A stretch of DNA of 64,000 bases, taken from contig CM049395.1 in the NCBI GenBank assembly GCA_026929865.2, forward strand, positions 30,327,001 through 30,391,000, in the 5' to 3' direction. Position numbers and translations under genes: made by a program. Source of the DNA: Hyperoplus lanceolatus. Taxonomy: Eukaryota > Chordata > Actinopteri > Uranoscopiformes > Ammodytidae. Shown here piece by piece: positions 37,701 to 40,700 of the stretch (within the stretch, counting starts at the first letter, position 1; the number at the start of each line of letters is the position of its first letter). A model generated the notes under the pieces. That model saw nothing but the letters and a program-made list of their open reading frames with translations, made no database searches and was not told where the DNA came from.

Positions 37701-40700
37701 TAGGCTGAAGCATGGCAAAAAAGGAGAGAGGAGAAAAGCAGTTAGTGAGAAACACAACCGACCAGCAGTGGAAACACGCCATGCACAAACAGACAAGAGA
37801 AGGAAATCAGAACAAGGTATACATGATGTACCCATGTATAATGGCACTGGCACACGCACACACATCCCAATAGAGACCCAGAGAAACCGTCAGTTTAATT
37901 GTACAGTAAAGAACATGTAGTTCTTGGAAAGATAAAGCCACTGCAAAACAACCACGCCGCCGAAGGTTGTGTCAGGATGGGTGCAGCCTAACTCAAGGAA
38001 ATAAGAGGGAGAAGTGAAGACTTTACACTAGCAGGCTACTTCTGATGGATATCAGAGTGTTGAAACCACAGGTAGCAATGCTTTACGCGATCAAGTTTAA
38101 AAGTGATATGGGTGGTTTTGTTTTATGTACAATTAGACAAGTGCGCCTTTGGCCAATATATAATAGTAACACCTGAATGTATGAACCAGAGCTGTTACAG
38201 TCATAGTTTCCGCAGTGCACCTGAAAGCAAAAAGAGGTGGGCTCTTTCCCCCCCTGCATTCCTCACAGACCTGGCATTAGCAGAGCAAATAAACCATCAG
38301 CTTGCCACATTTCTAAGGGAGTTTCTCTTGCCCCCAGGAGGGAAAAGCTAATCACTCATTTCCTCTCTTCAACTGACAGTGTGGCCAGGGCTAGGCAGAG
38401 GTTAGTCAGCTTTAAAAGGGAAAAAGGAACTGGAAGTTTAGGGGGTGAGCAGAAAATGTATTTAAATCACCCAAAATGTACCTTTTCTTCTAGTATCCTT
38501 TTGTTAGTAGTGTTATTTCTAGTGTTATTTCCAATAGTGTTATTGATGCTTTATAGACAGATTTAATAGTTTACAGAGACAAGACGTAAAACTGAACTAT
38601 TTTAGGTTTAGAAGGATGGCAGTACTTTCCCAGACAGTACTTCTTTCATTTATGTAATGTTCTCTCCAGTTTCTAAACCAAAAAAGAAAATGTTTCCTTC
38701 TTATAAAATTAGCCATAAAGGTAATTCTGGTCAGGAGTTGAGGTATTAACAATAGTGACACAAGACCAGGAATAGTCTGTGCATCCATTCATCAGCTGTA
38801 CCTCAGGAATTGAGGCATTACTTCAATTTCACACAGAGCTCAAATTACTTATACTATGAAAATATTTCTTTATGGTTAATGCCTTTTTTGCTTTTGCTCC
38901 ATACAATAAAATGACAAACTGTCTTTAAACACCCACTAGCTAGTTGTATGAGTGAAAAGTGACGTTGTGCGTAGCTGGAGAACTGATCCCTTTAACAATG
39001 TTGTCAATGTTCTATAGCACCTCTCTAGGTGGCTGAAGTTTTCTGTTTCCACTATAAACTCAGTTATTCTCAGAGCAGAGTGACGTGTTTAGCACACAAC
39101 CGTGGAAAAAGTTAGGAAGTGTCCTGCGTTTTTTTGGAGATGAGGATGGAGAGGAAGTGGCAGACTGCACCCATCGCGGAGAAAAGGAAGGGAGCGGTGG
39201 AGAAATCCACAGGTACCTGAAAATATGGTGCATAGCTATAGGCTTGAGGGGGAGGACTGAAACCAGTTGCACCGTAGGGGAGGTAAGTTACTGTCTGCTG
39301 GGAGAGGGAGCTCTGGATGATGTATGGGTCATAGCAATAATGCTACGGGCAAGGGTAGTCACAAACACACAGTTACATTCTCAAATGCAAGACAAAATAT
39401 TAGTACATACTACATACATACTAAGTTATCAAACTGATAAGGAAAATGCAAAATCATCAAGTAGAGAAAAAGCATATATAGAAGCATAGAGGAAACTCTT
39501 GAACCCAAACTACATGGAGAAGACAACCCAAAACACTGTCACAAAAACAAATGAAACTATATTTCGGACGAATTAGACTTATATAATGAGAGAAACAAAT
39601 ACTACAGTTTTCTGAGGCTTAACTAAATGAGGCATGTATAAATGGAAGTTAAATGTGCTATTCAGAGTGCAGTAATATAATCCTGGTGGTAAAACTTGGT
39701 TAAGTAAAGGAATTGTTACCAAAGTCATGACACCCATGCGGTCCAGTTCTCTGTTAGGGCTGCGGGGAATGCGTCTGGGAGTGGATTGGCCAGAACCAGG
39801 CGGAGAGCCGCCCAATGAGGAGCCTGCACACAGTGACGGAGGGATGGAGCTCATGGAGCGGAAACGTCCTCCTAGGCTATCGCCGCTGCCCACCCGACAC
39901 TCAATCTCCTCTGCCCGGATGGCTGTGTTTTCCTTCTCCTCTTGAATCATTCTGCAACAATAAAGGAAGGAGAAGAAAATGGCCAAGTTAATTTAAAAAA
40001 GCAAAATGTTGGTGTGTTGCTCTGGTAGCTATGTAGCTGCTGGTACCTAATTTCATTGTTGATAGCATCCAGCTGCTCCTGTAGCATTAAGGCGAGGGTT
40101 TGCGCATCCGCCTGGCCACCAGGGGACAATATGTCAACCGAGCTGAACATGGTCTCTCGATCTTCCTCCAGGTCCGAAGTGTCCATGTCACTCTCAAAGG
40201 CCTGGGCCACATTCGCCAGCACGTTGGCCTGCTGCATGCGCTCCCACTCCTGTTCATTCAGAGTCTGCACCTAGATGAATCCACACAGGCATAACACAAA
40301 GAAAATACAGGGAGTTAGGAGAGAATCAGAGGCAATAGAGAGAGATAAGGACATTGGCTGGATAATTGAGCACTTATCATTCATTGCACCAAACAGTCAA
40401 AAGGAATCGTCACTGTTATCCCCACCACACTGACTTACATGTCGCTGATGTCCCGAGTTGAAGCAAACAGAAAGAAACGGAGAAGAACAAAATAATCAGA
40501 GAGAACTCAAATATTAGACAGAAACAGGTAGAGGAAGGAAAAAGGCACACGATACAAATACACGTGTTACAAGACAGAGAACAAAATAAAATGAAATAAA
40601 AAGACCTGTCCAGTAAATGCAATCATTACAAATGATAAAGGAATCAGAAGAAAACCAGATTTTTACCCCAAAACATTTTCAAGTAATGAAACAACCAATA

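Follow-up and report, generated by a model that had tools for sequence, protein, structure and literature searches.

Probable tyrosine-rich alternative exon in ppfia1 of Hyperoplus lanceolatus, with predicted counterparts in other percomorph fishes

The closest systems to the segment analysed here, which we call exon A, are predicted liprin-alpha1 isoforms of other percomorph fishes. Inserts homologous to it occupy the same junction in isoform X4 of Oreochromis niloticus, X4 of Monopterus albus and X3 of Clinocottus analis, as well as in proteins of Larimichthys crocea, Oryzias sinensis and Dissostichus mawsoni. These models are computed and differ in insert length (26 to 45 residues), and we found no functional description of them. 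Splicing of mouse and human liprin-alphas was reportedly surveyed in 2009. Tyrosine-rich alternative exons are also present in the disordered regions of RNA-binding proteins such as RBFOX and hnRNP proteins, where splicing of the segment changes assembly; these are spliced tyrosine-rich segments like exon A, although the proteins are unrelated and we infer the assembly role of exon A.

Within the liprin family itself, a described alternative in-frame segment offers a likewise optional stretch in the same protein family, and a similar run of 21 residues is encoded near 33826..33785 of the window, by which we mean the whole 64,000-nucleotide stretch of Hyperoplus lanceolatus DNA analysed (GCA_026929865.2, contig CM049395.1, positions 30,327,001 to 30,391,000). 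That segment differs from exon A in place and sequence and has a known partner there. Neural microexons have been named in Ppfia1, Ppfia2 and Ppfia4 (PMC7821500), and these are also phase-preserving optional exons of the same genes; exon A, at 126, 81 or 78 nt, exceeds the limit of at most 30 nt given there, and we rejected its assignment to this class. Exon 10 of human PPFIA1, which is regionally spliced in the retina (PMC8330894), is an alternative exon of the orthologous gene that differs from exon A in size (75 nt by its coordinates). Two further papers mention an RBPMS-regulated PPFIA1 splicing event (PMC6613909) and a larger neuronal liprin-alpha1 (PMC11001580), which may or may not involve exon A.

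Exon A in its long form occupies 39217..39342 on the minus strand and comprises 126 nt or 42 codons in phase 0 on both sides, as delimited by its translation and by the homologous inserts of relatives. It is bounded by an AG acceptor and a cag/gtacct donor and lies in an intron of 2015 nt (GC 0.401), between a ppfia1 exon at 39720..39951 (minus), which starts with MIQEEKENT and ends with RMGVMTL, and a 30-nt exon at 37675..37704 (minus), which encodes ten residues and is called the PSDLRK exon below. Retranslation confirmed the coordinates, strand, frame and phase that a first-pass annotation of this DNA had assigned to 39217..39342, and its placement between the MTL and PSDLRK exons was correct as well. 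A TAG stands in frame directly 5' of the exon, and the open reading frame as a whole encodes 76 residues (39342..39112, including the stop). Downstream of the donor, the frame of exon A stays open for 34 codons (39216..39112, minus). The 42 residues translated from 39342..39217 include 8 Tyr, 6 Pro and 2 Phe, with no Lys or Arg and a single Asp or Glu, and thus have the aromatic-rich, low-charge composition of a tyrosine-rich assembly segment. No repeat family was found over exon A when positions 37500-40000 were compared without a transposon library; the exon may still derive from a repeat. Among RNA-binding-protein motifs, listed without a control, GCATG is absent up to a distance of 250 nt from exon A, and one TGCATG lies 81 nt before the PSDLRK exon.

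With respect to the splice sites, which were scored with approximate weight matrices, so that all scores are approximate, the donor of exon A reaches 1.2 and takes 3rd place among the 126 GTs in the intron. The acceptor of the long form scores -0.2 and ranks 29th among 106 AGs; the constitutive MTL donor scores -0.7 with the same matrices. Two further acceptors lie inside the exon, at 39297 and 39294, where they form a tandem NAGNAG; both are in frame and both outscore the long acceptor. The first would give a short form of 81 nt (39217..39297, minus; acceptor ctctcccag/CAGACA, score 2.0) that starts with QTVTY, and the second a shortest form of 78 nt (39217..39294, minus; score 0.9) that starts with TVTY. 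All three lengths combine AG/GT borders with divisibility by three and a phase matching the flanking exons. The insert of Monopterus (P0082) starts with QTVTY, as does the 81-nt form, and that of Oreochromis (P0006) with TVTY, as does the 78-nt form, from which use of both short forms in H. lanceolatus appears probable. Since the splice sites of the window and the models of relatives agree, a single donor common to nested in-frame acceptors would yield inserts of graded length. These nested acceptors (126, 81 or 78 nt), matching the long and short inserts of relatives, are new here.

Taken by itself, the local sequence of exon A is a moderate lead. Of 100 dinucleotide-shuffled introns, 6 contained one or more open candidates in phase 0, 42-80 codons long, in which both splice sites scored as high or higher, and 8 or more tyrosines were found in 13 of 48,654 open 42-codon windows of the shuffled introns, counted as overlapping and hence non-independent windows. 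What leads us to accept exon A as real is that inserts homologous to it occupy this junction in relatives.

Relatives were collected in two protein searches. The first used the liprin joined from the window, with a query region consisting mainly of flank, and the best 120 of its 1023 matches were kept; the second, with exon A and a further candidate exon (candidate B, below) as query, gave 4 matches from 6 candidates, 3 of them already among the first 120. The resulting set holds 121 liprin-alpha1 proteins, each at least 900 residues long. Among the matches listed, a homologous insert exactly between the MTL and PSDLRK exons is present in 7 of the 121 proteins and absent from 114, a ratio that is not a frequency, because sequences in the database are grouped at 90% identity, so that forms with and without the insert may share one representative and be hidden. 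Six of the seven insert-bearing proteins come from percomorph species, which belong to Eupercaria, Anabantaria and Ovalentaria.

Insert lengths are 26 residues in Oreochromis niloticus, 27 in Monopterus albus, 37 in Clinocottus analis, 42 each in Larimichthys crocea, in P0009 and in Oryzias sinensis, and 45 in Dissostichus mawsoni. The longer class thus comprises P0007, P0008, P0009 and P0087, with 37-42 residues, and P0122 from Dissostichus, with 32 plus an extension, the last 13 of its 45 residues looking like read-through past the usual donor. This 13-codon read runs into a stretch matching 39216..39112; either the model is wrong here or another alternative donor exists. Identity to the insert of the window amounts to 20/26 in Oreochromis, 25/27 in Monopterus, 27/37 in Clinocottus (plus 5 gap positions), 38/42 in Larimichthys, 39/42 in P0009 and 32/42 in Oryzias, with Dissostichus left out. 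In these six, the insert (62-93% identical) is less conserved than the preceding stretch (141-147 of 152 positions). Across eight aligned sequences, T22, T24, Y25, P27, G32, P44 and Q47 (numbering of the aligned stretch) are invariant, so that the Tyr of TxTY is among the seven invariant insert positions.

At the level of annotation, Clinocottus analis has one isoform with the insert (X3, P0007) and one without it (X9, P0077), the two lying on contigs of equal length. The skipped form is also represented by P0081 (1236 residues on a 6020-nt contig), which probably derives from spliced RNA or a copy thereof. When joined insert variants were used to look for shorter relatives, 1 of 532 candidates matched, P0123 (199 residues, 908-nt contig), which keeps the TVTYLPYG core, continues past the donor and has an earlier part resembling the other frame of the window; judging from these features, it seems to be a genomic read with the long part out of frame.

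Exon A at 39342..39217 is thus the counterpart of an alternative ppfia1 exon annotated in other percomorphs. The homologous inserts and the X3/X9 isoform pair bear out the cassette exon proposed in the first-pass annotation, which had counted the lack of an open, conserved counterpart in related fish against the exon; such counterparts exist in percomorphs. Its description of the exon as undescribed holds in part: predicted percomorph liprin-alpha1 isoforms already contain exon A, but among the open-access liprin and PPFIA1 papers listed we found none that describes it. We file exon A under a known class, the alternative exons in disordered regions.

The insert stands out most clearly against its surroundings in tyrosine content. 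When the central region was cut from VQTLNEQ (or from MIQEEKE where the former is missing) to HELLEEA and the insert left out, 7 of the 121 proteins could not be cut and were dropped. This region of about 290 residues holds no tyrosine in 97 of the remaining 114 proteins and a single one in 17, although many of these rows are isoforms of one species and the counts are not independent. The single tyrosine is always at the same site (SLYAG), and all 17 proteins are African cichlid entries. The central stretch of the window itself (299 residues without the insert) has none. By comparison, inserts contribute 3-7 tyrosines in relatives, the number not being constant; the window insert has 8, of which the short forms retain 5. 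Exon A brings nearly all tyrosines of the central region of liprin-alpha1, an observation that is new here. Both the scarcity of tyrosine around the insert and the nested acceptors had escaped the first-pass annotation.

The position of the insert can be followed in the Oryzias protein P0087, in which coiled-coil domain 2 ends at 501, a match to the solved liprin-alpha2 peptide 6iuh_C covers 626-657, and a match to the solved SAM-domain chain 3tad_A begins at 892. Between these, a ten-residue stretch spans 707-716, the insert occupies 729-770 and the residues of the PSDLRK exon follow at 771-780. From primers printed in PMC12668518, STPRR holds the putative counterpart of the human T701 site, and the insert lies about 20 residues after it and directly before a basic RKHRRK stretch. 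An AlphaFold2 model of P0008 has pLDDT values of 27-35 over the insert, with a mean of 44.6 for a model in which the folded SAM domains also score low; it is compatible with disorder but no more.

As a function, we tentatively propose that the insert is a tyrosine sticker or phosphorylation segment tuning liprin-alpha1 assembly, a reading that is possible although we give it well under even chances. The insert would act as an almost uncharged segment rich in Tyr, Pro, Ser and Gln that is probably disordered, and its inclusion would bring aromatic residues, and with them possible sites of tyrosine phosphorylation, into a region nearly free of tyrosine. The added tyrosine stickers might pair with neighbouring Arg and Lys residues, such as those of the adjoining RKHRRK; Tyr-Arg contacts of this kind could alter self-assembly of liprin-alpha1 or recruitment of partners, and tyrosine phosphorylation of the insert could reverse the change. 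Condensation of liprin-alpha3 is reportedly driven by PKC phosphorylation of its linker (PMC8144191). Human liprin-alpha1 mutated at Ser/Thr in its C-terminal disordered regions is reported to gather in clusters or in bodies resembling condensates, and cell spreading depends in part on T701 (PMC12668518). T701 itself is not established as a control of assembly, since the T701A/S708A double mutant is diffuse, as is the wild type (PMC12668518). A bolder and more doubtful version would make the exon a percomorph tyrosine dial controlled by splicing, in which nested acceptors supply 0, 5 or 8 tyrosines (window counts) and thereby set condensation, with tyrosine kinases and liprin-binding LAR-type phosphatases reversing it. 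Such a dial would be located in an otherwise tyrosine-free region, between reported Ser/Thr phosphorylation sites and the basic stretch.

Other readings of the same exon were weighed against this one. Exon A could be tolerated splicing noise, that is, a weakly used in-frame exon that predictors keep because it is open and that has no function. The low rank of the long acceptor (29th of 106, at -0.2) and a donor score of only 1.2 are compatible with this, as are the absence of the insert from 114 of 121 proteins and its lower conservation relative to the flank. Weak splice sites are frequent in alternative exons, however, and the constitutive MTL donor is also weak here (-0.7); moreover, three percomorph groups share a 12-residue core as well as the junction, and we regard splicing noise as unlikely. 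Quite unlikely, too, is a phosphotyrosine docking switch, in which the join YFQ/P creates a YxxP motif and what splicing switches is the binding of adaptors, not assembly. YxxP is the kind of motif bound by CRK-type SH2 domains, and 6 of 8 inserts have it at the join when the 13-residue Dissostichus extension is omitted, 5 of 8 as annotated. P0009 (Phe) and Oryzias (His) lack it, however, and these sites are putative, being assigned by motif. The YxxP at the join may be a rival of the assembly reading or an addition to it.

The first-pass annotation had suggested a ligand for SH3 or WW domains that recruits cortactin or similar proteins, for which one could adduce a PPP stretch in the insert and the cortactin repeats encoded downstream on the same strand. 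We consider this very improbable: the window insert with its flanks contains neither PxxP nor PPxY, PxxP is present in 1 of 8 inserts and PPxY in 0 of 8, and gene adjacency is no evidence of binding. Both the ligand and the link to cortactin lack a basis in the sequence, and we dropped them on this motif count. That the exon is merely a chance open frame in an intron is hardly credible, despite the 6 of 100 shuffled introns with an equally good candidate, given the homologous inserts of relatives at the same junction. This reading was rejected, and only a shared annotation error could rescue it; the inserts of relatives are computed gene models, and gene prediction favours open frames. As the best explanation, an alternative exon of ppfia1 is quite probable, the proposed role for its tyrosines being much less so.

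The same intron holds candidate exon B, unproven, at 38173..38220 (minus), with 48 nt in phase 0 encoding 16 residues. Its acceptor is the best of 106 in the intron and its donor the 11th of 126; in 200 shuffled introns, the best acceptor reached the score of the candidate B acceptor in a fraction of 0.13. The sequence was absent from all proteins among the matches listed in our searches, and we note it as a lead to a possible second cassette exon.

Elsewhere in the window, cortactin lies downstream of ppfia1 on the same strand (HS1_rep in 3 of 3 stretches tested), and the two genes adjoin within 7277..51651. In fish, npsn and mtch2 are found beside fadd instead of ppfia1 and cttn, according to a 2007 medaka paper (PMC1903365), and the adjacency observed here fits a separation of the pair from fadd together. 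The cortactin gene region includes an AT dinucleotide repeat of about 340 copies (18439..19120), and remnants resembling a Tc1-type transposase are found at 21867..22553 (DDE_3 on the plus and HTH_Tnp_Tc3_2 on the minus strand, both below the Pfam curated cut-offs). Two C-termini of liprin-alpha1 are encoded on the minus strand, at 29093..29073 and 28748..28725, ending in VRTYSC and FKTRMMN. Among the 121 proteins, 56 end in VRTYSC, 57 in RMMN and 8 otherwise; because these two alternative C-termini exist in 56 versus 57 proteins, splicing may switch the C-terminal ligand of liprin-alpha1.

Liprin-alpha proteins act as organisers of synapses and cell edges, and their assembly reportedly responds when the linker is phosphorylated. 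With exon A, one could test cleanly whether splicing by itself is able to switch a tyrosine-based assembly of such a scaffold. Our comparison, which is one of fish proteins, further suggests that mammalian isoforms may underrepresent the range of vertebrate liprin-alpha1.
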